DNA from: Pseudobdellovibrionaceae bacterium
GTDB lineage: Bacteria > Bdellovibrionota > Bdellovibrionia > Bdellovibrionales > Bdellovibrionaceae
Assembly (NCBI GenBank): GCA_016785955.1
Contig: JAEUWH010000018.1
Coordinates: 1-45,114, forward strand
DNA length: 45,114 nt
Reading direction: 5' to 3'
Of the stretch, positions 309 through 32,011 are shown piece by piece; positions within the stretch are counted from its first letter, which is position 1, and each line of letters starts with the position of its first letter. The notes under the pieces are model-generated. The model searched no databases and was not told where the DNA came from. It saw only the letters and a list, made by a program, of their open reading frames with translations. Made by a program: the position numbers and the translations under genes.

Positions 309-1205
309 CTAATGACTCCACTCGACCTGACCGGATTTTAGATGGTATAGAGCCGTTTCGACGCGAAGGGAGCCTGATTTTGCTGCGTCTCGGACAATCT
401 TTGATTTTTCCATCAATTTTTGTGCTACTCCGCGAGTATTGTCCCAACCTTCGGATATTAATCCTTCCGAGGCCGGGCCGCGTGTGGTCCCGTGAATAAT
501 TCGTGGTTGAACTTCGGCGACTAATGCGTTTAGGAATGGACTTCCTATATCCTCCTCGGAAGCGGTCTCGATGGCTGTTTTGATCGCGCCACACGAACTA
601 TGCCCCATGACAAGAATTAAGTTAACTCCTAGATTTTGAACGCCATACTCGATACTGGATAAAACCGAACTATCGATGGTTTGCCCCACGGTTCGGACTA
701 CAAAAATTTCGCCCAATTTTTGGTCGAAAACTAACTCGGGTGGCACGCGAGAGTCACTGCACGAAAACACAATCGTATGAGGACGTTGCCCTTCAGAAAC
801 TCTGACCACATCTTTTTTGTTTGCACCGTCTTTGCGAAGAAAGCCTTTAAGATAACGAGTGTTTCCATTTTTCAACCATCCCAACGCTTTATCGGCAGTC
901 GTCGGTCCTATCTTTCTTGTTTCGGCGCTAGCTGATTCTGTCGGTGCAAGAGTGTTGTGAGCGTTTTGAGCATCCTTTTTTACGATGGCTTCGGCTCTTT
1001 TCAAAGACTGTTTAAGGTCTTCTAATTCTTTTGACGGGGCTGATTTTTTTTCTTCGTTTTTATCTAGATTTATTGCGACAGGTTCAGGCCTAGCTGCGAG
1101 TGTGGGAGTGGTTGGGGGCGGTGCCGGTTCAGCTTTTTTTGAAGATGAGCATTGAATAAGCGTGGCAGACAAAAGTCCAATCAAAATGGATTTTATAGAA
1201 TTCAT
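309..1205 (-). CDS. Exported lipoprotein beta-carbonic anhydrase
   Basis: Beta-class carbonic anhydrase, which interconverts CO2 and bicarbonate on a zinc centre. The zinc ligands and the Asp/Arg dyad are visible: C149-S-D151-S-R153 followed by H202-S-S-C205, in the family order. The N-terminus is unusual. Residues 1-18 form a hydrophobic leader ending LIQ before Cys19, a good lipobox, and residues 20-105 are a Pro/Lys/Glu-rich linker. The catalytic domain starts near residue 105. This predicts a lipid-anchored periplasmic or outer-membrane enzyme, while most beta enzymes are cytoplasmic. An AAGGAGAT ribosome site lies just upstream of the ATG. The gene is divergent from the aminotransferase at 1374. 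A second, leaderless beta enzyme lies at 31364. Confidence 0.93.
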   Translation of the reverse strand: MNSIKSILIGLLSATLIQCSSSKKAEPAPPPTTPTLAARPEPVAINLDKNEEKKSAPSKELEDLKQSLKRAEAIVKKDAQNAHNTLAPTESASAETRKIGPTTADKALGWLKNGNTRYLKGFLRKDGANKKDVVRVSEGQRPHTIVFSCSDSRVPPELVFDQKLGEIFVVRTVGQTIDSSVLSSIEYGVQNLGVNLILVMGHSSCGAIKTAIETASEEDIGSPFLNALVAEVQPRIIHGTTRGPASEGLISEGWDNTRGVAQKLMEKSKIVRDAAKSGSLRVETALYHLKSGQVEWSH

Positions 1206-2490: not shown

Positions 2491-4086
2491 ATGGCGTTCC
2501 AAAATTTATATAAGATTGGTTTTTTGATGAGTTCTTTGTCGATAGTGGCATTTGCGCAGAAGACTGATTTGCAAAAGATATTAACTCCCTCGAACATTTC
2601 TCGTGAAGAGTTGATCAAGAATAATCATTTGATACGTTTATGGCCACTTGATTCAGTGTCGAGTCGGGGCGATAAAATGATCATCGAGAATGTCGTAAAA
2701 AACACGGCTGGGGTGATGGATCGCGGTTTAGGAATTGTGCCGGTGAGTTGTGGAGGACAATCATACGCACGGTTTCATCAAGGCGCTATTTTGTCTGATG
2801 AAACAATGGTGATCAAAGACTTGCTGAAAAACGCCGAATACAATGTCGTACAAAGAGCGGATGATTATCTTCGTAAAAAAGCGGTGGCGGGAGTGACGTG
2901 GCTGTCTGGCCAAGGTAGCTCGGTACTGGATCCCTACACACAGTTGCATTCCAATCAGCTGGTCAAAGACATGCAGAATCCAGAAATTCAGAAAGCGATT
3001 GCGAATACGACGTCGTTAGTGAAAGTCACAAATGAAAATCGTCATCGACGACTGCAGCTGGAAAACAGTGATTACACAATTGGCGGTTGGTTTAAGGCGG
3101 ATCCCAGTCCGGGAGGAACCAGTCTTTTTAAAAAATATTTTTACAGCCCTGATCAGGCAGAACCAATACTAGAGTGGGAAATGTTTGCCACAGGAAATGA
3201 TATTTTCTTTCATGGTCACCGCGACAACGAGCTTGCTGCCGAGATGAAATACCTGTCGACAGAAGACGCTCGACGATTTCGCGCTCAGCACGCCGATTTT
3301 TATGGCTTGGATGACACGTACGATGATTTGCTCGAGAAAAAAGCGATTCAAGATCAAATGACACAGCCAAAGAAAGGCAGCATGATCTTGCAACGTATTT
3401 TTGTAGACATGCCTATTGCACACAAGTCGGCAAAGCCGGTTCCGCCTCCAAACACGCCTCCCCCGGTGAGTCCTCCGGTACAGATTAATCCTCCGTTCAT
3501 ACCTTTGCCTCCCAATCAGGAAGTGCCAAGGCCCTATTATCCACAAGCGCCGGTTTTAATCGGTTATGTTTCCAGTGGTAAGGATCACACTATTGGATTT
3601 AATATCAAGCAATTTTGGTGGGGGATGGCAAATTCTCTGGGCGCGTGTTCGGACTGTATCGTTCCTAATCGAGATCATGACATCTGGCATTTTTTTGCGG
3701 TCAGTGTCCATTTTAGTGATCCTTTGGGGCCATATTTGGATTTAACGATTATTCGTGATCCTAATGAATTTAAGTTTGGTAATAAGGCGACATTAAGTAC
3801 GCATTTTCGTACACAACGCGTATTTTTAAATCACGTGGAGTCATCACGTCCTTATAAAACGCCCATTGCTCAAGGGTTCAAAACTGAAAAAGGTTGTCGG
3901 AGCCATGATTTTTGCACGCGATCAGAATTAGAAATCGGCGGCATCAATGGTGCTCGACCGTTTAATGGTTACATGCGAGGCATCTTTATGTCTAAGAAAG
4001 CGCTGAACCAATCAAGTATTTTACAAATGGCCGCGCAGTTTAATCCTCAAGATGCCAGATTGTGCTCATATAATCGAAGTAACTAA
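2491..4086 (+). CDS. Exported LamG/concanavalin A-like protein with proline-rich insert
   Basis: 531 residues with a signal peptide (roughly residues 1-22, ending VAFAQ). The body has features of a LamG/concanavalin A-like jelly-roll: an early LIRLWPLD segment (48-55), YTIGGWFKA (195-203), DIWHFFAVSV (397-406) and, near the C-terminus, FNGYMRGIFMSKKALN, the typical 'small change, visible helper strand' end of LamG domains. Between the two halves sits an insert with a Pro-rich stretch at about 316-352. LamG domains usually bind glycans or proteins; no catalytic residues are evident. It is the first gene of the cluster, two bases before the next one. The LamG call is a pattern judgement at low sequence identity. 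Confidence 0.72.
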   Translation: MAFQNLYKIGFLMSSLSIVAFAQKTDLQKILTPSNISREELIKNNHLIRLWPLDSVSSRGDKMIIENVVKNTAGVMDRGLGIVPVSCGGQSYARFHQGAILSDETMVIKDLLKNAEYNVVQRADDYLRKKAVAGVTWLSGQGSSVLDPYTQLHSNQLVKDMQNPEIQKAIANTTSLVKVTNENRHRRLQLENSDYTIGGWFKADPSPGGTSLFKKYFYSPDQAEPILEWEMFATGNDIFFHGHRDNELAAEMKYLSTEDARRFRAQHADFYGLDDTYDDLLEKKAIQDQMTQPKKGSMILQRIFVDMPIAHKSAKPVPPPNTPPPVSPPVQINPPFIPLPPNQEVPRPYYPQAPVLIGYVSSGKDHTIGFNIKQFWWGMANSLGACSDCIVPNRDHDIWHFFAVSVHFSDPLGPYLDLTIIRDPNEFKFGNKATLSTHFRTQRVFLNHVESSRPYKTPIAQGFKTEKGCRSHDFCTRSELEIGGINGARPFNGYMRGIFMSKKALNQSSILQMAAQFNPQDARLCSYNRSN

Positions 4087-4088
4087 GA

Positions 4089-5279
4089 ATGAAACATTCG
4101 GCCTTGTTGTCCCTATTTTTGTTTTTTTTCTCGGCGACTTCCTGGTCCCAGGCGTGGCCACATGATGCCAACAAAACCTGGAATGACGAAATTGAACATC
4201 AATATTCCAAATGGATCGAGAACAATGTCGATGATAATTTTCTGAGGCGACCAGGCCGGGTGTACAGTGGGATGTCGGTGGACTGTGCTGATTTTGTTTA
4301 CCTGTTGCGAATGGTATTCGCCATGGACAACGGGCTTGAGTTTGCTATTAATGATCCTTCACGTCCAGGGCAAATTATTTCCAGTCGTAGCCGGCGTTGG
4401 CAAATGCATCCGCAAAAAGTGCGAGCATTTTTTCAATATGTCTTTGATGTCACCAACACGCAAACGTTACCCAATGATACGGTATTGGTCCCGTTGTCGA
4501 AGACGGGGCTTCGGCCCGGAGTGATTCTTCTGGGAGATAAAAAGCGGGGGCATTCGATGGTGATCAAAAATTTTAAGCCTTCAGGAATTCCAATACTTTT
4601 TTACGGTAATTTGCCAGCACGAGAATTTGTATACACGGCCTACAATTTTCCGGATCCCTTGAGTTATTTTCCCCTGGGACCCATCTCGCAGGCTCGTGGT
4701 GGGGGATTTCGTTGGTTCAAATGGCCACAAGACTTGTCGCGATCGTTATCAGAAATTTCATACGCCGGTGAGGATCAGCTGGTGGCCGGGAAAGATTTGG
4801 TTCATTATTTCGATTTGGTGCAAAAGGTAGTGCGCGTAAGAACGGTGGTTCGGGACGAACTGGTGAACTACATGATTGATGATTTATGTTCGCAGGTGCG
4901 TGTTCGCATCAATACGATTACGGATGCGGCGCAGTTCCTGAAACGTAACTCCTATCGAGAGTCTCATTGGCGTATGAGCGCGGCCGAAGATGATCGTTTC
5001 TCGACCTACAAGCGCGATGAAAGTATCCGTGGGTTAATTTCGAAAATTCAAGTCGAGTACAAACAGGCTTTGCAGAACACGTCTTATCCATTGTCTACTG
5101 CCACCAAAGCACGGCTACACAGTGTCTTTATGCCAAAAGGCACAATGAATGATGAATGCATTATTGATTGGGCAGAAAATCGAATTGAACCTCTTGGTTG
5201 GATCATCGAACGCTACCAGTCAGGTTTAATTTCCAGCCGTGCCCAGGATCCTTTGGGTGTGCGTTGGGGAATGCCATAG
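4089..5279 (+). CDS. Exported Cys/His protein, NlpC/P60-like (paralogue A)
   Basis: 396 residues with a signal peptide ending near SWSQA (residue 22). It is clearly homologous to the protein at 11661: both share KTWN near the mature N-terminus, then YxG-x3-DCAD, a conserved SR-x-QxIS stretch, RAF-x3-VFDVT, LRxG, GHS/IHS, GIP, and a C-terminal FSTYxRD block ending near RWG. The Cys66 in DCAD at a helix start and His155 in GHSMVI on a following strand resemble the Cys-His pair of NlpC/P60 or CHAP peptidoglycan hydrolases. This is a fold-level inference; the third catalytic residue is not identified. The start lies two bases after the stop of the LamG-like gene, indicating co-transcription. Confidence 0.75.
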   Translation: MKHSALLSLFLFFFSATSWSQAWPHDANKTWNDEIEHQYSKWIENNVDDNFLRRPGRVYSGMSVDCADFVYLLRMVFAMDNGLEFAINDPSRPGQIISSRSRRWQMHPQKVRAFFQYVFDVTNTQTLPNDTVLVPLSKTGLRPGVILLGDKKRGHSMVIKNFKPSGIPILFYGNLPAREFVYTAYNFPDPLSYFPLGPISQARGGGFRWFKWPQDLSRSLSEISYAGEDQLVAGKDLVHYFDLVQKVVRVRTVVRDELVNYMIDDLCSQVRVRINTITDAAQFLKRNSYRESHWRMSAAEDDRFSTYKRDESIRGLISKIQVEYKQALQNTSYPLSTATKARLHSVFMPKGTMNDECIIDWAENRIEPLGWIIERYQSGLISSRAQDPLGVRWGMP

Positions 5280-5282
5280 GGA

Positions 5283-5298
5283 CTCAAGATTTCTTGAG
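5283..5298 (+). other. Short perfect hairpin after paralogue A
   Basis: CTCAAGA and TCTTGAG form a compact hairpin directly after the stop at 5279. The following bases (ACTTTCT) are not a proper U-tract, so termination is doubtful. The 5280-5460 gap also holds two CTCTTGTT repeats shortly downstream and could contain a promoter for the six genes from 5461; I cannot place -35/-10 boxes with confidence. Confidence 0.3.
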
Positions 5299-5460
5299 AC
5301 TTTCTAAGGTTTTCAGGGAGTCCGGCCTCACTCAATTTAAAATTTTGAGTACAAAAGGAAGAAATTCTACACTCTTGTTAAAAACTCTTGTTTTTCCTTG
5401 GCAATTGCATGAGTTTCCACTACGTCTTTGGCAAGCAAATAACACGTTAAAGGAGATTCT

Positions 5461-6408
5461 ATGTTTAGAACGTATGCTGCATTTTTTACTGTTATGTTGA
5501 TCGCGTTGACTCAAGCCGATGCTATCTCATTAAGATTCAAATCGAAAATTTTTTCAAGTGGGCCAGACATCTATGCTTGTAATGCCGGTGTGGCTTCGGC
5601 TTTCTTACAAAACTCGGTGTGTTTTTTTCGTGGAACAAATACATATTGTACGCCCACTTCATGCGACAATGCGAAAGAAAATTGCAATACCAATTGCCTA
5701 TGTCTTGATAAAGGCGGCCAAGGCGATTCTTACGTGAATAAACTTCTTTTAAAATATAAAGCATATAATGCCTCTGGGAACGCAACGATTCCGGTGACGA
5801 AATCGGCCATTGGTCCAAGATTCGAACCGGTATTTTCGGCAGTGGATTCTTGGAATCGTGAAATCAGCGATGTGGCCACTCACTTCATGACCGAGGCTTA
5901 TACCGGTTCTTACTTTATCGATATCTGCTATCGTGGCACTCAAATCCCCAATGGTGGTGGTTACTTTGTGTTATCAACAGAAGCCTCGGCGATTCCATTT
6001 TTAGTTACGGATCTATTGGGCTATGGCTCGTTTGATAACAACCGTAATGGTTTGGACTTCAACGTCGTTGGCCAGTTGTACACCGAAAAAGCCGGCTTAA
6101 CTGTAGAGCGTTTCGTTGTTTGTGGGACGTCGGCGAACACGTCTGATTTTGCCATCAATGGTACAACCGGTGTTCCGTCAGGACCCGTTTCAGGTGCCAC
6201 TTTTTACAGTGCATCGCCAGAAGCTTCGTTACGAGCATCTGCGCAAACAGTCGCGCACGGTTCTACTATTGATCCTAAATTTTGTAAGGTTCGCTATATT
6301 TTCCGTGAAACTAACTGGCGTGCGTCTGTTCCTGCAAAACGTGACAACTTGGGAGAAGGTGCCGAGGTTTGTACATACACTAAAATCAGCGATCCTGTGG
6401 CTCAGTAG
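5461..6408 (+). CDS. Exported Cys-rich protein of unknown family
   Basis: 315 residues with a signal peptide (about residues 1-21, ending TQADA) and a strong Shine-Dalgarno (AAAGGAG) seven bases before the ATG. The mature protein has a Cys cluster near the N-terminus (residues about 38-81, with CDNAKENCNTNCLC) and further cysteines at the C-terminus, consistent with disulfides in the periplasm or outside. The central part is rich in Gly, Ser, Thr and aromatic residues, as in beta-structured secreted proteins. I do not recognise the family. It heads the second half of the cluster, with its own 180-bp leader, and is followed 20 bp later by another exported protein. Confidence 0.8.
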   Translation: MFRTYAAFFTVMLIALTQADAISLRFKSKIFSSGPDIYACNAGVASAFLQNSVCFFRGTNTYCTPTSCDNAKENCNTNCLCLDKGGQGDSYVNKLLLKYKAYNASGNATIPVTKSAIGPRFEPVFSAVDSWNREISDVATHFMTEAYTGSYFIDICYRGTQIPNGGGYFVLSTEASAIPFLVTDLLGYGSFDNNRNGLDFNVVGQLYTEKAGLTVERFVVCGTSANTSDFAINGTTGVPSGPVSGATFYSASPEASLRASAQTVAHGSTIDPKFCKVRYIFRETNWRASVPAKRDNLGEGAEVCTYTKISDPVAQ

Positions 6409-6428
6409 TTTGTGAGTTGAGGACGCGA

Positions 6429-7943
6429 ATGGGAATACAATCATCTTTTCTAAGATTATTGAAATTAGGCCTCCTGATGGGAGGCTGTTTCCATTTTTGC
6501 TCTTCCCAGGCGTGTCAGCTCGAAGGTGAAAATAAAAAAAACGCAAAAATATTTTACGCTTCGAATGATCGGGTGACGAAGTATAATTTAAATACATACG
6601 AGCTTAAAAATTGCCAACAAGATGTGCTGCTGACCAAAACGGTCGAGCTTCCCTCGCCGCAAAATTTTTCTACCGAATCTTGGCTCACGGAAACGGCGAC
6701 ATCAAAGCGCGGATGTTCAGTGGTGGCTCCGACGGCACCCATGGCGGCCATATTTAAAGATCCGAGTGTGTACACGATAGAGCGAATTGAACTCAGTGAC
6801 GCCTGTATAGGGATAAATGTCCAAGAGACACAGCAAAAAGCGATCAGTGTCAGTCAGTCTAAAAATTGCCAAATCCTTAGTCAAAAGACGAATTCTCAGT
6901 TACTGCTAAAAGGCGAAAACTGTCGTATTTCAGGTAAGGGAGTGTTGAATCTTAAAATTGATTGGGTCGTTTTAAATACGTGTTTATCTTATTCAAAGTC
7001 AAAAGTGGATTTGAACTTTCGATTCAGAACGGCTGAGGTGTCTCGGCAGGCAAAAGAATTTGTATTACCAGAGATGATTCTAGATAAGAAAGTTGAATTG
7101 CTGTTTGAAAATGGTTCAGAAAATCAGCCACGATATAAAATGGGTGACAGTCTGTACGCTATTCGTAAATCTGATCAGTATGAAATCGATTTCGATTTTT
7201 TGAATTTGTCACTGATTGGTTCAAAGTACACTCAAATGCGAGTCAAATCAGAATATTTAGTGCAAAATAACTCGACTCAAAAAAGCCCTTTTGTTTTAAA
7301 TCACAATTTATTTTTAGTTAAAAATGGTAATTATGCGTCCCCAATCCTGCTAGGACGATGGTATACAGGAGCTTATTTACCTGGAAAATGGATGGGGATG
7401 GACGGCCTGTCTGAAACTTTCAATTTCGGCCCGGCTTTTGATTCCTTTGAATTGAACGAAAACCGCACCCAGATTATGGCTGGTGATATAATTGTCTTAA
7501 GAAGCGAACTACTGTCACCAAACAAGGGGCCTCAGCGGTTTGTAGAGTTTTTCGACGAGCAATTGAAGAGATATCAGAAAAAAAATCCTGGCCCGGCGGC
7601 CGTCACACAGGTACGCACAGACAAAATTGACGAGATCAAGCCTATTTCGGGCTTAGATCTCATTAAATTGATCCCCGAGATTGATCAATCGTGGAGTGAC
7701 CCTAGAACCACGGCCTTTGCAATGATTCCTTTAAGTCCAATACGTTATCAAAATTACTGTCTAGAAAACGACTGTCGCCGTTTCGAAGAAATGGATGTAT
7801 TTCCAGAGCAGAGAGTTTCATTTCTGGTGGAAGAAGCGGAGATTGGTATCAAGATCAAGCCGGTGCAGGTCTTGAAGCGGAATTTTAAAAATCAAACACG
7901 TGTATCTGAGCTGCATGAAATGGGTCAGATTCTATGTTTTTAG
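6429..7943 (+). CDS. Exported protein of unknown family
   Basis: 504 residues from the ATG at 6429, chosen because TGAGGA lies five bases upstream; an in-frame TTG at 6417 is the only nearby alternative. The N-terminus is a signal peptide ending around CSSQA, and the mature chain begins with Cys. A double Gly before an earlier Cys (LLMGGC) is a poor lipobox, so I favour ordinary signal peptidase I cleavage. The body is mixed charged and beta-prone, with scattered cysteines (for example near YCLENDCRRF at the C-terminal side) and no motif I can name. The next gene starts 14 bp downstream, within the same apparent operon. Confidence 0.78.
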   Translation: MGIQSSFLRLLKLGLLMGGCFHFCSSQACQLEGENKKNAKIFYASNDRVTKYNLNTYELKNCQQDVLLTKTVELPSPQNFSTESWLTETATSKRGCSVVAPTAPMAAIFKDPSVYTIERIELSDACIGINVQETQQKAISVSQSKNCQILSQKTNSQLLLKGENCRISGKGVLNLKIDWVVLNTCLSYSKSKVDLNFRFRTAEVSRQAKEFVLPEMILDKKVELLFENGSENQPRYKMGDSLYAIRKSDQYEIDFDFLNLSLIGSKYTQMRVKSEYLVQNNSTQKSPFVLNHNLFLVKNGNYASPILLGRWYTGAYLPGKWMGMDGLSETFNFGPAFDSFELNENRTQIMAGDIIVLRSELLSPNKGPQRFVEFFDEQLKRYQKKNPGPAAVTQVRTDKIDEIKPISGLDLIKLIPEIDQSWSDPRTTAFAMIPLSPIRYQNYCLENDCRRFEEMDVFPEQRVSFLVEEAEIGIKIKPVQVLKRNFKNQTRVSELHEMGQILCF

Positions 7944-7957
7944 TGAGGAGACGAGAA

Positions 7958-8521
7958 ATGAAAATGTTAGTGGTTATTTTATTTTCTATGGCCGCAATGG
8001 CTCAATCTGGAATCGAGGCTTTGGAAACGGATACGTTAGAGTCGCCGGCTACTAAACCTGCAACACTAGGCACAGTGGCCAAGATCGAGCAGCAAATTGT
8101 TGAAGGTATGAAGATGAAATGTGACATAAAATTTGGTTGTGCCTTATTCGTCGATGGTGGCAAAGGTTATGATGTGAAAGTGACGGTCGGGGCGGGTGAA
8201 GGTCCTAACTATGGAGTGGGTGGTAATGGTGGTGGAATTAACATCTACAGTGGTTCGGCATCAGAGCAGTACTACGGTATTGCGGTGACATTTGTGTATT
8301 CTAACTATGTGTGTACACGCTATGTTCCAGAGGGTTCATTCATGATCGTTGAGACGTATCAACGTTTGATGGCCTCTCCAGAGTATGTAAACAAAGTATT
8401 TTCGGCGTGGAAAAAGGGTGAAGATATGCCGACGCCTGAAGCCGTTAAAACGGCGTTGAGTGTGCTGGCAACGGTCAAGCCGACGCAAGCAAATTGTGGT
8501 CAGCGTTTAAACAACAACTAG
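7958..8521 (+). CDS. Small exported Gly-rich protein of unknown family
   Basis: 187 residues from the ATG at 7958. This start is preferred over an ATG at 7934 because GAGGAG lies just upstream and the product then begins directly with a signal peptide (MKMLVVILFSMAAMAQ). The central region is Gly-rich (GAGEGPNYGVGGNGGGIN), with four Cys spread through the chain (CDIKFGC, VCTRY, NCGQ). Such a composition suits an extracellular or surface protein. No family is recognised. It is separated by 14 and 30 bp from its same-strand neighbours, both exported. Confidence 0.76.
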   Translation: MKMLVVILFSMAAMAQSGIEALETDTLESPATKPATLGTVAKIEQQIVEGMKMKCDIKFGCALFVDGGKGYDVKVTVGAGEGPNYGVGGNGGGINIYSGSASEQYYGIAVTFVYSNYVCTRYVPEGSFMIVETYQRLMASPEYVNKVFSAWKKGEDMPTPEAVKTALSVLATVKPTQANCGQRLNNN

Positions 8522-8551
8522 AATATTTTATCTTTCGACGAAAGGAGGCCG

Positions 8552-11089
8552 ATGAAGTTACTATTTAGTTTCTTATTAGCTCTGCCTCTTTCAATCTGGG
8601 CCAATCAGAATTTGTATTTTTCTAGTCCAAATCTGTGTGCTCGTCAGTCGATGATGCCGGCAAAAAGTGTGTACATTTTTATTGACGGATTTGGCCCGGG
8701 GAGAGCGGCAACCAAATGGGCGCGTGAGGCGGGTAAAGGTCAAGCTGAACTGGTCGCAACCACTTGGCAACAATTGCATGCACGCAGTTTCTTTTTGTCT
8801 AAACGAATTATACAGCGAATGCTTTCCGGTGAGCTGCCTTTGTTTACATCAGCTCAGCTGAAAGCCTGTGGTGCGACGTTGGATTGCCCTGAATTTCAAA
8901 CTCGATTGGCCATGTATCGTGGATTGATTAACGAGATATCTTCGGCGTCGCTAGTCCCTGTGCAATGCACGTGGATAAAGAAAGCCTTGCCAATATCATT
9001 TTCGACGAGGATTCCAGATAAAAATGATTTAGAAAACCTGGCAGTCGCATATCTGGATAAGGCAAACTACATCGACACATGTGAAAAAATATTTTCTGGT
9101 GAAACTCAAAAATCCATCGATCTTGTCTTGAAATTTGATTTGCCGGAATTGTCTAGAGTTCCTGTCAGTTTTGAATTTTGGCGTTCATTCAAAATTTATC
9201 TAAGTTTGTTTTGGGGGCAAAAGTGGACAAACTTAGCATTGCATAATCAGGAAATTGTTCGCAGTTTTGCGGTGGATGAAATTGTCACTTTAATGGCGGA
9301 TGGCTGCTATTCATTGTCTAATCCTTCGTGTGATACCGATTTTTTGAATGTGGCTCAGTTAAAAAACACACTTCGTAAAGGTGGGTTTCAAAACTCGAAC
9401 TTGATGGCGAATGAGATTTTAAAAACGCAAGTTGCGGGTTTGAATGATCGCCTGACTCCGGCACCACAAAATATGTCTGCCGCCGTGAATGTTCGCGAGG
9501 ATATGTTGTCTTTGATGAAAATGCGACATCAGTCCAGTTTTGAACTCTACAAATCTGTTAAGAAATTGAACCTGATCTTTAGTCAAAAATCGTCAGCAGA
9601 AATGTATGGAAATTTGTCTCCGCTTTTGAAGGCTTCGGTGATTGAGCCGGAAATATACACATTATGCGCCGAGATTGGTAAAGTGGTAGCGACAAACTTA
9701 AGTCCTTATGCTCATGAGTTGGCCATCTCAAAAAACAAAGTGTTTGGTTTGAATGATATTTCTTTGATTAACCAAAACCCAGACCAGTTGTTTAGGCAGG
9801 CGATTGATTTTTTAGAAATGTTGAAGCCTTTGTGTCAGAAAGTGGATGACGATTTAAAACAACAAATGATGGCCTCTGAATCAAAAATATTGAATAATAT
9901 GATTCCGGCACGTCAATGGTTTCAGACAATCACTCGTTATACGTTGCCAAACGAGCTATCCTCGCCGATCAGTTTTGTATCCGATAAAGCGCGCGTACCT
10001 GTGGATACATCATATATCAAAGTACAAAATGAAGCTGTTTGCCCATCGGTAGTCGAGTGTACGCGTGATGTGATGGAGAGTCTGGTGCATATTTATCAGG
10101 TCGCCTTGTACCGAAACATAGCGATGAGTAAACAGGCCAATGAAATCACTCCGGATCGACATTTGGGCGGTGATGTGGCGTGTGGGTTGTTTGATCCTTG
10201 GGAAAAAAGCCAGCTACGAAAAAAGAATTTAGTCTCGGACATTGTCAGCGCGGTTATTTCTGGAGTGACGATGCTGCCGGTGTTTTTAGATCTTGATTTC
10301 GATACAAAAAATTTGACCAGTTTTCAGCAGCTCTATGATAATGGTCAGATTAAATTTGATCCTCAGTATGATGATCGTTCCTTACAGACTACATTATTCT
10401 TAGATCTTGGGCCGATGGCTAAGTCACCATGTTACGTGAGTATTTCAAATTCTAGTAAAATTAAGTCGCCGGACACGGCTTTGTTGTTTCAAGGGGTCAC
10501 TTTTCAGGGATGTATTCAAAACGGTAGCGGGCAAATTGTTTCTAATAATTTGAATGCGCAAACGAGCCGTGTTCAAGAACTTTCGGCTTGTGGGGCCTGT
10601 ACATTAAATTTTGAAACGGTTGGGAAATTAGCCGTGCAAAGTCACTTTAATGTTTTTCGTTTTGGAATTCGTTTTGTCGCGGCTTTATCTTCATTTTTTA
10701 GAGATCAAGAAAACCCCATCAATTCGCCAATGGAACTGACGGTTAATCCTGAATACGTTAAGGACGCTTACTTAAAGTATAATTCTATACCGGATAAATG
10801 CATGTACGAACTTGTCAACGGGGCTCGCTGCATGGAAAATATCTGTCTATCGTACACGATATCTAAAGTTGAAGAGGCGTGGAATGTAAGGGTTAAAGAC
10901 GGCAGCGTATGGAATTCCCAGCAGGATGACCAGTTCTTGGTGACGGATCGATCCTATAGTGATGCTTGGTTAAAACTTGATGGTTGTGACAGAGAAACGC
11001 GTATTCCGATCCGTTGTGACCGTGGTAAAAAGCCGACATATGTTAAAACTGATTTTAAAGTGCCGACCTGTGCGAAGCGGTTTCAATGA
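8552..11089 (+). CDS. Large exported Cys-containing protein of unknown family
   Basis: 845 residues, the largest product of the cluster. AAAGGAGG is six bases before the ATG, a very strong ribosome site. A signal peptide ends near SIWA (residue 17). The mature N-terminus reads KSVYIFIDGFGPGRAATKWA, a hydrophobic strand followed by Gly-rich turns, which may be the start of an alpha/beta domain; I could not find a catalytic motif to support that. The rest is largely helical by composition, and many cysteines occur in the last 250 residues (for example SACGACTLNFE). The stop overlaps the next start by ATGA, so the two are translationally coupled. Function unknown. Confidence 0.8.
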   Translation: MKLLFSFLLALPLSIWANQNLYFSSPNLCARQSMMPAKSVYIFIDGFGPGRAATKWAREAGKGQAELVATTWQQLHARSFFLSKRIIQRMLSGELPLFTSAQLKACGATLDCPEFQTRLAMYRGLINEISSASLVPVQCTWIKKALPISFSTRIPDKNDLENLAVAYLDKANYIDTCEKIFSGETQKSIDLVLKFDLPELSRVPVSFEFWRSFKIYLSLFWGQKWTNLALHNQEIVRSFAVDEIVTLMADGCYSLSNPSCDTDFLNVAQLKNTLRKGGFQNSNLMANEILKTQVAGLNDRLTPAPQNMSAAVNVREDMLSLMKMRHQSSFELYKSVKKLNLIFSQKSSAEMYGNLSPLLKASVIEPEIYTLCAEIGKVVATNLSPYAHELAISKNKVFGLNDISLINQNPDQLFRQAIDFLEMLKPLCQKVDDDLKQQMMASESKILNNMIPARQWFQTITRYTLPNELSSPISFVSDKARVPVDTSYIKVQNEAVCPSVVECTRDVMESLVHIYQVALYRNIAMSKQANEITPDRHLGGDVACGLFDPWEKSQLRKKNLVSDIVSAVISGVTMLPVFLDLDFDTKNLTSFQQLYDNGQIKFDPQYDDRSLQTTLFLDLGPMAKSPCYVSISNSSKIKSPDTALLFQGVTFQGCIQNGSGQIVSNNLNAQTSRVQELSACGACTLNFETVGKLAVQSHFNVFRFGIRFVAALSSFFRDQENPINSPMELTVNPEYVKDAYLKYNSIPDKCMYELVNGARCMENICLSYTISKVEEAWNVRVKDGSVWNSQQDDQFLVTDRSYSDAWLKLDGCDRETRIPIRCDRGKKPTYVKTDFKVPTCAKRFQ

Positions 11090-11664
11090 AGATAATTGCA
11101 ATGGTTTTATTTTTTTCGCTGGCAGTTTGGTCTGACGAGTTACGGTTGGACTATCAATATATTAGCTCGTCGTTGATGCTTTCAAAAAAAGTTTTTACGG
11201 AAGATGGTGAAATGAATATGGGATATTTCGTTACCTGCCGTGACGAAGACGGGGACGTGTGTCAGTCAACATGTGGTCAAAACTCATGTTTGATTGCACG
11301 GGATTCGTGTGACTCGTGTGTGTCTTCGTCGAATTTAAATATATTTGCAATATTCCGCGATTTTTCAAATTTGTTTTCACTGCGACAAAACCCTATCGAT
11401 TGGGGATTGGTGTTTTCAGAATTAAAGTCAGGAAGTTGGCGCATTTTGGACGAAAATACGATATTAAATTTGTTTGAAGATACGCAAGCTGATGAGAAGT
11501 ATAGTGATGCTAAAAATCGTTTTATGTCCCGTTGTCCAGTGATGACCGCCAGTGCGTATCTGCTAGTAAATGCAAGAAATTTACGTCCCTATATTTATGT
11601 TTGCCAAGGTCCGTATGGTATCGTGACATATGACACCCACGGGGTTTTGGAGTCGATACCGTGA
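11086..11664 (+). CDS. Small exported Cys-rich protein of unknown family
   Basis: 192 residues with a short signal peptide ending at SLAVWSD. A compact Cys cluster (seven Cys between about residues 46 and 84, including CGQNSC and CDSCVSS) suggests a disulfide-rich domain. Two more cysteines lie near the C-terminus (SRCPVM, YVCQGPYG). The ATG overlaps the stop of the 845-residue gene (ATGA), and its own stop overlaps the GTG of the next gene (GTGA), so all three are coupled. No known family. Confidence 0.76.
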   Translation: MKIIAMVLFFSLAVWSDELRLDYQYISSSLMLSKKVFTEDGEMNMGYFVTCRDEDGDVCQSTCGQNSCLIARDSCDSCVSSSNLNIFAIFRDFSNLFSLRQNPIDWGLVFSELKSGSWRILDENTILNLFEDTQADEKYSDAKNRFMSRCPVMTASAYLLVNARNLRPYIYVCQGPYGIVTYDTHGVLESIP

Positions 11665-12815
11665 GGTTGATCGGGGTGATCTGTCTTATTGGCCTGCAAG
11701 CCATTGCGGCAGTGTGGACGACGGATAAAACATGGAATGAGCAGTTGGAAAGTCAGTACTCGCAATGGGTGGAAGTCAATTGGACAAATGATGTTTTTAC
11801 AAATCCACAAAGCCCGTTGTATGGCTTAAAAACAGATTGTGCTGACGCTTCATACGCCATGCGCGCCTATTTTGCCTATGTTAATCGGCTGCCGTTTACC
11901 TTTCATCGGTTTGATGGTTCTAGATCTTCGCAGGCGATATCTCAATTTGATCATCTTCGTGAATCATTGACTCGGTTTCGTGCGTTTTTGAATCATGTAT
12001 TTGATGTCACAAGTACGTATACTCTGTCGTTAGATACTTATCCCATCGCGATTAATCGTCAAGCTTTACGAGCCGGGACGGTGTATGTAAGCCCCGGTAT
12101 TCATTCGTATCAAATTATCGGAGTGGATATTTATGGGATTCCGAAGACTCTCAGTTCCACTGTCCCGCGCGAGACGCGTGTGCTTTTTTTTAATCATGGT
12201 TTTCCATTTTATATGCCCGGAGATAGCCGTCGAAATTTAGATGGTTTTCGTGCGTTTAAATCATTTGATGACATTCGAGCATCAAATGAGCAATTTCAAA
12301 TTGCCGCTAGTGCGGGCGGAGACTTCATTCAATATCAGAAGATGATGATCCTTAAGCTAGGCGAGGTCGACGAGCCTTTCGAGCGAAAAGTGAAACGAGT
12401 CAAAAGCAATTTGTGTTTTTTTTCGCGCGAGCGAGCTGTTCAGGTTGCAGATGCCTATGTTGAACATCAGGGGCGAGGGGGAACATGTTTTGGACGCGCG
12501 GGCTTTGACGACTACAGCACTTATGTGCGCGATAAAAAACTAAAAAGTTATTTTCAGGAATTCAAAAAAATGACCGCCGAACAAAGTTGGGCGAACACTC
12601 CTACAGAGATCAAGAAAATCTTGTTGTCTGTTTTTCTTTTTGAGATACCTGATGATGATTGTGTGGTGGAAACAAGTCTTGTTCAAAAGCCTTATTTGCG
12701 CTTGGCCGATATCAATAAAGCTTTGGACGAAGACCGCTTGGTTTCGGACCCCAATGCCAACATGCTGCAGCGCTGGGGACTTGAGTCTTATGCGCCGATC
12801 TGTCCTATTTACTAG
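11661..12815 (+). CDS. Exported Cys/His protein, NlpC/P60-like (paralogue B)
   Basis: 384 residues starting at a GTG that overlaps the previous stop (GTGA). The signal peptide ends near QAIAA. It is a paralogue of the protein at 4089, with the same order of conserved blocks: KTWNEQLESQYSQW, YGLKTDC60AD, SRSSQAIS, RAFLNHVFDVT, LRAG, H148 in IHSYQII, GIP, DDYSTYVRD and a C-terminal RWGL. Preservation of Cys60 and His148 while the rest has diverged argues that these two residues matter, as in an NlpC/P60-, CHAP- or transglutaminase-like cysteine hydrolase. Activity and substrate are inference only. It is the last gene of the cluster and converges on mreB 21 bp away with no obvious terminator. 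Confidence 0.75.
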   Translation: MRLIGVICLIGLQAIAAVWTTDKTWNEQLESQYSQWVEVNWTNDVFTNPQSPLYGLKTDCADASYAMRAYFAYVNRLPFTFHRFDGSRSSQAISQFDHLRESLTRFRAFLNHVFDVTSTYTLSLDTYPIAINRQALRAGTVYVSPGIHSYQIIGVDIYGIPKTLSSTVPRETRVLFFNHGFPFYMPGDSRRNLDGFRAFKSFDDIRASNEQFQIAASAGGDFIQYQKMMILKLGEVDEPFERKVKRVKSNLCFFSRERAVQVADAYVEHQGRGGTCFGRAGFDDYSTYVRDKKLKSYFQEFKKMTAEQSWANTPTEIKKILLSVFLFEIPDDDCVVETSLVQKPYLRLADINKALDEDRLVSDPNANMLQRWGLESYAPICPIY

Positions 12816-13882: not shown

Positions 13883-14497
13883 CTATTTCGCTCTCTTCTT
13901 GAACCCCGAAGCATTGTCAAATGGTATACTGACAAAAAAACTGATTCCTGATTCTGATTTATTTAAATCTAGTTGCAGTTCGCCCGCAAAAAAAACATCA
14001 CGGGCATTGGGGTGTTCGTACTCGGCACCCATGGTAAACTGAGTTCCGGTGTGATTGTTATCACGAACGAAGACTAAATTAATTGGCAGCGCCAGATAAC
14101 TGGTGAGGTTACCTTTGTCGATTTGAATTTTTTTACTTACTAAAGGTGCGATCTGAATGGTTGAAACATTGGTGTCGTTTGTGTGAGTCAGCCAGTAGGT
14201 CGTGCGCACGCCAATGGCCGGTTGCTGAGCATAGTCAGGAAAAGGTACGTATTTTAGAGAGGCACCCATTTGAAATTCCACACTCCCTAGGCCAAACAAA
14301 AAACGGCTCGATAAATCATCTCGCCAGCCAGCATCTAAAAAGCCGCCAACGTTCAATCCGCCTTTTCCGGCAGAAAGGGTTTGTAATGAGCCTCCCAAAC
14401 GATAGGAACTTGGCGCAAGCGTTTCGCCAGACTCGCCAATAGATAAATAATTTGCAAATGAGAACAATGGCAAAAATAACAAGAGTATGGCTTTCAT
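13883..14497 (-). CDS. Exported beta-rich protein, possibly a small outer-membrane barrel
   Basis: 204 residues from the ATG at 14495-14497, chosen because AGGGGT precedes it and the product then starts with a clean signal peptide (MKAILLLFLPLFSFA). The mature chain alternates polar and hydrophobic residues with many Gly and aromatic residues, as in outer-membrane or periplasmic beta barrels (for example FLFGLGSVEFQMGASLKYV and ISFFVSIPFDN near the end). No cysteine and no catalytic motif. The product is likely co-transcribed with mreB, eight bases downstream. Function not assigned. Confidence 0.7.
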   Translation of the reverse strand: MKAILLLFLPLFSFANYLSIGESGETLAPSSYRLGGSLQTLSAGKGGLNVGGFLDAGWRDDLSSRFLFGLGSVEFQMGASLKYVPFPDYAQQPAIGVRTTYWLTHTNDTNVSTIQIAPLVSKKIQIDKGNLTSYLALPINLVFVRDNNHTGTQFTMGAEYEHPNARDVFFAGELQLDLNKSESGISFFVSIPFDNASGFKKRAK

Positions 14498-14576
14498 AAT
14501 AACCCCTAACGAAGTCATAGAATAAATAGCTGGCCCCGCATTTGACAAGCTGAATAACTGTTGAGACAGTTAAGTC

Positions 14577-15332
14577 ATGTCGCTCGATAAGTTGCCAATC
14601 AGCCTGGTTGTCATCACCTTAAACGAAGAAAAGAATATACGCGCCTGTATTGAATCAGCTCCTTTTGTGAGTGATATTGTTATCTTAGATAGTTTTTCTA
14701 AAGATAAAACTAAAGAAATTGCGATTTCATTAGGGGCACGTGTTTTTGATCAAAGTTGGTTAGGGTTTGGTCCTCAAAAAAATAAAGCCACTGAGTTAGC
14801 AACTTATGATTGGGTGCTAAGTTTAGATGCAGACGAGTGCGTTTCGCCCGAGTTGCACGCCGAGATTAGGCAAAAATTTGCGAGCTTAAATTCAACAACG
14901 GGTTATCTGATGCCGCGTAAATCGTTTTACTTGGGACGTTGGATAATGCATGGCGGATGGTATCCGGACTATCAGCTACGACTTTTTCATCGTCAGAACT
15001 CGGGTTGGAACCAAGGGGAGATTCATGAAAAAGTGGAGTCCTTAAAAACGGAAAAATTTCAATCGTGTATTCAGCACTATGTTTTTACTTCGATCAGTCA
15101 TCAAGTGATCACCAATGACAAGTATTCCAGTTTACAAGCAAAGCAGATGCATGAAAATAAGTCGGCAGCATTTTCGCTTTTTCGTTTATTGGTCAAGCCA
15201 CCAGTAAAATTCTTTGAAAACTATATTTTTAAACGTGGTTTTATGGATGGGTTACCGGGATTTATTATTGCGGTGGGTTCGGCTTATTCTGTATTTTTAA
15301 AACATGCCAAGCTGTGGGAGCTGAAAAAGTGA
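14577..15332 (+). CDS. Family 2 glycosyltransferase, WaaE/KdtX-like
   Basis: Inverting GT-A glycosyltransferase that uses nucleotide sugars. The N-terminal half has the family signature: SLVVITLNEEKNIRACIES, a DSFSKDKTKEIA segment and the DxD-like metal site in SLDADECVS. Downstream, FYLGRWIMHGGWYPDYQLRLF and the GEIHEKV segment are typical of the WaaE/KdtX group that adds glucose to the lipopolysaccharide inner core. The 251-residue length matches. It should act on the cytoplasmic face of the inner membrane, with the hydrophobic C-terminal segment (GLPGFIIAVGSAYSVFL) near the bilayer. Its stop overlaps the next gene's GTG. Confidence 0.88.
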   Translation: MSLDKLPISLVVITLNEEKNIRACIESAPFVSDIVILDSFSKDKTKEIAISLGARVFDQSWLGFGPQKNKATELATYDWVLSLDADECVSPELHAEIRQKFASLNSTTGYLMPRKSFYLGRWIMHGGWYPDYQLRLFHRQNSGWNQGEIHEKVESLKTEKFQSCIQHYVFTSISHQVITNDKYSSLQAKQMHENKSAAFSLFRLLVKPPVKFFENYIFKRGFMDGLPGFIIAVGSAYSVFLKHAKLWELKK

Positions 15333-31363: not shown

Positions 31364-32011
31364 ATGGGAAAAAAAGAAATTCTCCGTTTGATGATTGGTT
31401 TTCGTAAGTTTCATGAAAAGTATTTTGCGAATGAACATTCGTTGTACCAACGTTTATCCTCTGGCGCAGGACAATCGCCGAAAACTTTAATTATTGGTTG
31501 CAGTGATTCACGTGTGGATCCGGCTATTATCACTTCGGCCTCTCCGGGAGAGTTATTTATTGTTCGTAATGTGGCGAACTTGGTGCCTCCGTATGAAAAG
31601 GGAGGAGGGGTTCATGGGGTCAGCGCGGCGATTGAGTTTGCGATAATAAATTTAAAAGTCGAAAATGTGATCGTATTAGGCCATCGTCAATGTGGTGGCA
31701 TTCGTGCGTTGGTGACGAATCAAGGTATTCAAGCCGGTGGTTTCGTCGAGCAGTGGGTGCGTGTGGCTAGTGATGCGAAAGAGCGTGTTTTGAGCAAGTT
31801 CCCAGAGGCGAACGAGGAAACTTTGTGTCGTCATTGTGAGATGGAATCCATCGTGACGTCGTTAAATAATTTAAAAACGTTTCCTTTTGTTGAGGCAGCG
31901 ATAAAAGAACGCGATCTAGCATTGATGGGTATCTATTTCGACTTAGAGCAAGGTCAATTGCAAGAATACGATGACAAAGAGGGTGTTTTTAAAAACGTCG
32001 AATTGATCTAG
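31364..32011 (+). CDS. Cytoplasmic beta-carbonic anhydrase
   Basis: 215 residues without a signal peptide. The beta-class zinc site is present as C46-S-D48-S-R50 and H107-R-Q-C110, in the usual order. PGELFIVRNVANLVPPY and SAAIEFAIINLKVENVIVLGH are further family segments. It should supply bicarbonate or equilibrate CO2 in the cytoplasm. It is the second beta enzyme in this window, the other being a predicted lipoprotein at 309-1205. The short gap upstream contains the MerR gene terminator and, probably, its own promoter. Confidence 0.94.
   Translation: MGKKEILRLMIGFRKFHEKYFANEHSLYQRLSSGAGQSPKTLIIGCSDSRVDPAIITSASPGELFIVRNVANLVPPYEKGGGVHGVSAAIEFAIINLKVENVIVLGHRQCGGIRALVTNQGIQAGGFVEQWVRVASDAKERVLSKFPEANEETLCRHCEMESIVTSLNNLKTFPFVEAAIKERDLALMGIYFDLEQGQLQEYDDKEGVFKNVELI

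Follow-up and report, generated by a model that had tools for sequence, protein, structure and literature searches.

The closest described relatives of the locus analyzed here are the NlpC/P60 peptidoglycan hydrolases, such as MepS, RipA, and the YkfC-like enzyme BT_1314. The product of one of its genes, g8, shares with them a predicted papain-like domain (residues ~32 to 205) in which the cysteine stands at the start of a helix and the histidine at the start of a strand, but differs in belonging to a DCAD family of its own and in having an extra helical C-terminal domain and constant partners. Part of the g8 family also resembles the Pfam family DUF4846, from which it differs in that the N-terminal half, which holds the cysteine, is not matched. 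For laminin G-like/concanavalin A-like domains, the likeness consists of subthreshold Laminin_G_3 matches of another product, g1, and of one g1 homolog; g1 differs in its long proline-rich insert and in its constant neighbor, a hydrolase of the g2 family. In Bdellovibrio bacteriovorus HD100, one copy of the module described below adjoins the bd0743/dgcB region, but the papers on this region treat a sigma factor and a diguanylate cyclase instead (PMC3464611, PMC6561027); the cyclase gene, dgcB (Bd0742), is required for predation (PMC6561027). We group the module with envelope assemblies that have a dedicated papain-like cutter of wall or protein, its core families having no named relative.

The window, a stretch of 45,114 nucleotides from a Pseudobdellovibrionaceae bacterium (contig JAEUWH010000018.1), contains eight consecutive forward-strand genes, g1 to g8 (Table 1), which a first-pass annotation had taken for one cluster of exported proteins. 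Their spacing of 2, 181, 20, 14, 30, -4, and -4 bp is as that annotation gave it, and the signal peptides that it had assigned to all eight products were found again, as a hydrophobic N-terminal stretch with an AxA/SxA-type site; by this heuristic, which is not a trained predictor, type I-like cleavage sites occur in all eight and a lipobox in none. Cysteines past residue 25 number 6, 3, 11, 10, 4, 22, 8, and 5 from g1 to g8, and purine-rich, Shine-Dalgarno-like stretches precede g3, g5, and g6. None of the eight proteins reached a curated Pfam or NCBIfam cutoff, and PHROGs and PADLOC gave no convincing match for any of them; the profile searches bore out the observation that most of the products have no recognizable family. 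A role in antiphage defense was rejected on the lack of a PADLOC match. Of the two carbonic-anhydrase-like genes in the window, one has a lipoprotein-type signal sequence.

Table 1. Features of the window, with products as predicted from sequence
Feature	Position	Strand	Predicted product or nature	Remark
Carbonic-anhydrase-like gene	309..1205	-		
g1	2491..4086	+	Exported 531-aa protein, LamG/concanavalin A-like (weak), Pro-rich insert	First gene of the g1-g2 pair
g2	4089..5279	+	Exported papain-like (NlpC/P60-like) cysteine hydrolase, g8 paralog	Invariant C66 and H155
181-bp gap	5280..5460	+	Border between modules	Separate purine-rich ribosome-binding site for g3
g3	5461..6408	+	Exported 315-aa protein, 11 Cys, motif SSGPDIYACNAG	Core; most conserved member
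g4	6429..7943	+	Exported 504-aa protein, 10 Cys	Core
g5	7958..8521	+	Exported 187-aa protein, 4 Cys, middle Gly-rich	Core
g6	8552..11089	+	Exported 845-aa protein, 22 Cys, known fold not found	Core
g7	11086..11664	+	Exported 192-aa protein, 8 Cys	Core; 4-bp overlap with g6 and with g8
g8	11661..12815	+	Exported 384-aa papain-like (NlpC/P60-like) cysteine hydrolase, C60/H148, GTG start	Accessory
Carbonic-anhydrase-like gene	31364..32011	+		

The eight genes are two modules lying side by side, with the border at the 181-bp gap. The check for synteny across relatives that the first-pass annotation had proposed came out positive for g3 to g8, which are found gene by gene, in the same order and between the same flanks, in four genomes of the same genus (G001, G003, G004, and G005), and negative for g1-g2, whose place is taken there by other genes or by none. 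The shared flanks are an aminotransferase gene and a carbonic-anhydrase-like gene on one side and MreB-like, outer-membrane-like, and glycosyltransferase genes on the other. A single eight-gene operon was rejected, since g1-g2 is missing at this place in the four relatives. The sequence upstream of g3 is a different one in these relatives, so a separate start must exist for the g3-g8 block. Promoter and terminator scans gave counts near those of shuffled sequences and identified no promoter for g3-g8. At the place of g1-g2, G004 has an opposite-strand gene (L032 2480-3631, minus strand) whose product looks like a peptidase of the C1 papain family (VTNQCRTSECYLFSA). The g8 gene of G005 is split by a frameshift near the C terminus (L034 12686-13836), with residues 1 to 359 and 357 to 384 in different frames; the split is either genuine or an assembly error.

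A search with g1 detected homologs in 4 of 369 genomes of the phylum, this one and three others, and in all four g1 lies directly upstream of a g2-family gene, with a 4-bp overlap in G090 and G083. Since this holds for every genome that bears g1, g1-g2 is a real pair, although a rare one, and it adjoins another module here. G002, of the same genus, has no g6, yet it carries a g1-g2 pair elsewhere in its genome. The family resemblances seen earlier for g1 and for two Cys/His paralogs fared differently: g2 and g8 are paralogs (32% identity), but the LamG assignment of g1 falls short of the cutoff (Laminin_G_3, E 0.046, 14.3 bits versus a Pfam cutoff of 27.6), as does that of its G002 homolog (13.9 bits), and in a PDB-profile search of g1 neurexin LamG domains were the only matches, at E values of 1.6 to 2. 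If the likeness holds, g1 may direct the g2 enzyme to its ligand, either a carbohydrate or a protein. A recent foreign origin of g1-g2 was rejected, as base composition gives no sign of it (G+C of 0.44 and 0.47 versus 0.43 for the window).

The g3-g8 module is found far beyond this genus. The g3 alignment was run against 84,980 species genomes, a scan that depends on two short peptide patterns and makes absence outside Bdellovibrionota provisional; it returned 25 loci whose titles carry generic labels or name Bdellovibrionota (Bdellovibrio, Bacteriovoracaceae, Halobacteriovorax, and Oligoflexia, including B. bacteriovorus kdesi and Halobacteriovorax marinus). The g6 profile was found in 75 of the 369 phylum genomes, as a rule in one or two copies; B. 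bacteriovorus kdesi has three g6 genes. A g3-like gene, g4, g5, g6, and g7 occur together in 36 of 42 nonredundant g6 loci, a figure that describes the company of g3, g6, and g8, through which the loci were fetched, and not an unbiased sample; of the other six loci, five run into a contig end and the last consists of g6 alone. The order g3-g4-g5-g6-g7 is that of the window and of several Bacteriovoracaceae and Halobacteriovorax; Bdellovibrio, in which a second g3-like gene (x3) is present, has g5-g6-g7-g3-g4-x3-g8, and in L056, L057, L065, L071, L093, and L094 the module is split into two opposed halves. The flanks differ between genera and the gene set stays together. This keeping of content under changing order and place is the strongest sign of a shared function.

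The six families are also inherited together: their pairwise distances correlate (r of 0.67 to 0.94), species history contributing as well. In the g6 tree, the g8-bearing copies of G037 (an HD100-like genome), G010, and B. bacteriovorus kdesi group in one supported clade and the g8-less copies of these genomes in another; from this separation, the duplication of the units is old, and both versions have been kept. A chance neighborhood of unrelated exported genes is accordingly hard to credit at all: g1-g2 is a separate unit that merely adjoins g3-g8 here, but the co-occurrence of g3-g8 is conserved in permuted order, at different chromosomal sites, and across genera. The dedicated exported assembly of the first-pass annotation is thus supported for g3-g8, by synteny, recurrence at unrelated chromosomal places, multicopy units, and correlated divergence, and not as one eight-gene unit. 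Plasmid or phage cargo was another candidate that we rejected, as g6 has no match in plasmids and g3 none in phages.

The five core families, g3 to g7, have no match in Pfam, NCBIfam, PHROGs, or PADLOC, and no consistent Pfam match appeared across the 20 to 23 members of each. PDB sequence profiles returned nothing for g3 and g6 and no significant match for g4, so that none of these has a solved relative there. Confidence in the g6 model is low (pLDDT 65); it had no PDB match with an E value of <1, and a second look gave short-helix rows only. The products had been called orphans, which is right in that no known family matches them and wrong in that their families are conserved within the phylum; provisionally, the core families appear to be restricted to Bdellovibrionota and to recur there as a unit. 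It seems improbable that the module represents a diverged version of an established envelope machine, such as a pilus, conjugation, or secretion apparatus: the sizes and cysteine content loosely recall exported parts of such machines, and g4 has a subthreshold match to TcpS (E 0.06), but no ATPase, inner-membrane platform, or channel gene is constant in the set, and the core families lack a consistent Pfam match, as noted above.

We most likely face, in g3-g7, an accessory Sec-exported set that makes a single extracytoplasmic complex, located either in the periplasm or at the outer surface; its products would be exported, disulfide bonded, and in physical contact. For the locus as a whole we favor, on balance and by no wide measure of confidence, two independent exported modules, a phylum-specific disulfide-rich complex (g3-g7) with an optional hydrolase, g8, that would cut a wall, and the rare g1-g2 pair. 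The broader proposal that the core families build an extracytoplasmic structure that has no counterpart outside Bdellovibrionota, comes with its own wall-cutting enzyme, and persists in one or two ancient versions per genome is more tentative.

The hydrolase is the member about which most can be said. In many genomes of the order (60 of the 100 searched), the g8/g2 family is represented by several genes, and Cys60 and His148 (g8 numbering) are present in 49 of 49 aligned members, the cysteine within a DCAD motif. T/S167 is frequent without being invariant, and a third catalytic residue was not recognized in the alignment. An AlphaFold2 model of g8 (12 sequences) has a pLDDT of 86.8 and a pTM of 0.82; in it, Cys60 opens a helix (60 to 74) and His148 a strand (148 to 155), as in papain-like enzymes, and a helical C-terminal domain spans about residues 205 to 384. 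A Foldseek search with the model gave no significant match. In a second-look structure alignment (residues 11/32-205), MepS came first (Z 6.8 over 126 residues, 4.3 Å), followed by RipA (Z 6.5) and Bacteroides NlpC/P60 enzymes including BT_1314 (Z 6.1 to 6.4), Z scores of 6 to 7 being within the range that unrelated folds can reach by chance; phage tail proteins, CHAP domains, PlyPy, Tae2 (Z 3.5), and SpeB (Z 3.5) appeared further down. The papain-like reading therefore rests on the recurrence of one superfamily in the top rows and on a Cys and a His in the positions that the fold requires. Pfam NLPC_P60 matched none of 12 family members at an E value of 0.5, and DUF4846 (PF16138) matched 6 of the 12 weakly around the His (best E value, 1.6e-4), with 20.1 bits versus a curated cutoff of 37. 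There is, then, moderate evidence that g8 is papain-like, or NlpC/P60-like, in its predicted fold; by profile, it is not a member of Pfam NLPC_P60.

If so, g8 would cut an amide bond using Cys60 and His148, most likely a peptidoglycan stem-peptide bond, as MepS and RipA do, and the cut could allow its partners to be inserted into a wall, attached to it, or moved across it; the substrate and the owner of that wall are guesses on our part. About one module in two has no g8, so that the core can do without this gene in cis, and paralogs elsewhere in the same genome could stand in for it.

A doubtful but respectable alternative makes g8 and g2 maturation enzymes, that is, papain-like proteases or transpeptidases that process their exported partners, by trimming, cross-linking, or anchoring them, and do not cut peptidoglycan. 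It would suit the tendency of each family member to have a regular partner of its own (the g3-g7 core, g1, or a signal-anchored protein with a C-terminal CxC), the protease SpeB among the structural matches, and the occurrence of the hydrolase domain as part of exported proteins of about 950 to 1,120 aa. The highest-ranked structural matches of g8, however, are peptidoglycan-acting NlpC/P60 enzymes, and the partners revealed no common motif for cleavage or sorting; we keep to a wall-cutting role as the preferred reading.

Outside the module, g8-family genes are usually followed directly by a gene for a protein of 225 to 320 aa that has a membrane anchor at its N terminus and a CxC-type motif at its C terminus (L036 13797-14474, L037 1106-1807, L038 11827-12513, L040 7699-8334, L044 2723-3562, L050 13859-14587, L120 8646-9341, and, on contig 22 of the genome that holds the window, L048 11744-12511). 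By gene order, this anchored protein is a second regular partner of the hydrolase family. The hydrolase domain also lies inside longer exported proteins of 470 to 1,124 aa (L111 to L119, L121, and L122), five of which were scanned and had no Pfam match.

More than 40% of B. bacteriovorus genes are uncharacterized or hypothetical (PMC6561027), and the analysis sorts part of these in Bdellovibrio into a defined module of five cotraveling families plus a hydrolase family with a testable active site. In the HD100-like genome, G037, a g8-bearing copy adjoins bd0743 on the opposite strand, and the published bd0743 reverse transcription-PCR primers (PMC3464611) match this locus (L107) exactly, at 3548 and 3782. 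A list of hypothetical genes thereby becomes one unit that can be deleted and purified, with one copy beside bd0743 in the model strain. The main texts searched (data tables aside) do not discuss the HD100 genes under the numbers expected from position, Bd0746 to Bd0755, naming only bd0745, and those on collagen-like proteins say nothing of the module genes.

Could the module be a weapon against prey or competitors, g8 and the core being released to open or remodel the envelope of the other cell? The phylum is rich in predators, among them B. bacteriovorus kdesi and Halobacteriovorax marinus, the type VI secretion amidase effector Tae2 has the same broad fold as g8 (Z 3.5), and g8-less copies lie directly beside a collagen-repeat protein in three Bdellovibrio genomes. 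We nevertheless hold this to be unlikely, as the g6 gene is missing from at least 7 of 24 genomes in the genus to which B. bacteriovorus kdesi belongs and no gene of the expected numbers is named in the main texts mentioned above. Because of these g6-less genomes, the module is not a universal requirement of predation, and predation is unlikely to depend on it in general; an envelope complex with an optional wall-cutting hydrolase remains our preferred reading.

The second copy in G037, which has no g8, lies near 2.84 Mb. In B. bacteriovorus kdesi, whose genome is complete, the third g6 gene (L101 8150-10918) stands alone, apart from the rest of the module. The gene for the collagen-repeat protein lies just upstream of the g8-less copy of G037, on the same strand, and this neighbor is common to G037, G010, and B. 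bacteriovorus kdesi (L108 12299-15454, L100 ~14167-14751, and L067 ~3193-3705); in L108, it matches PF01391 with an E value of 1.2e-35.
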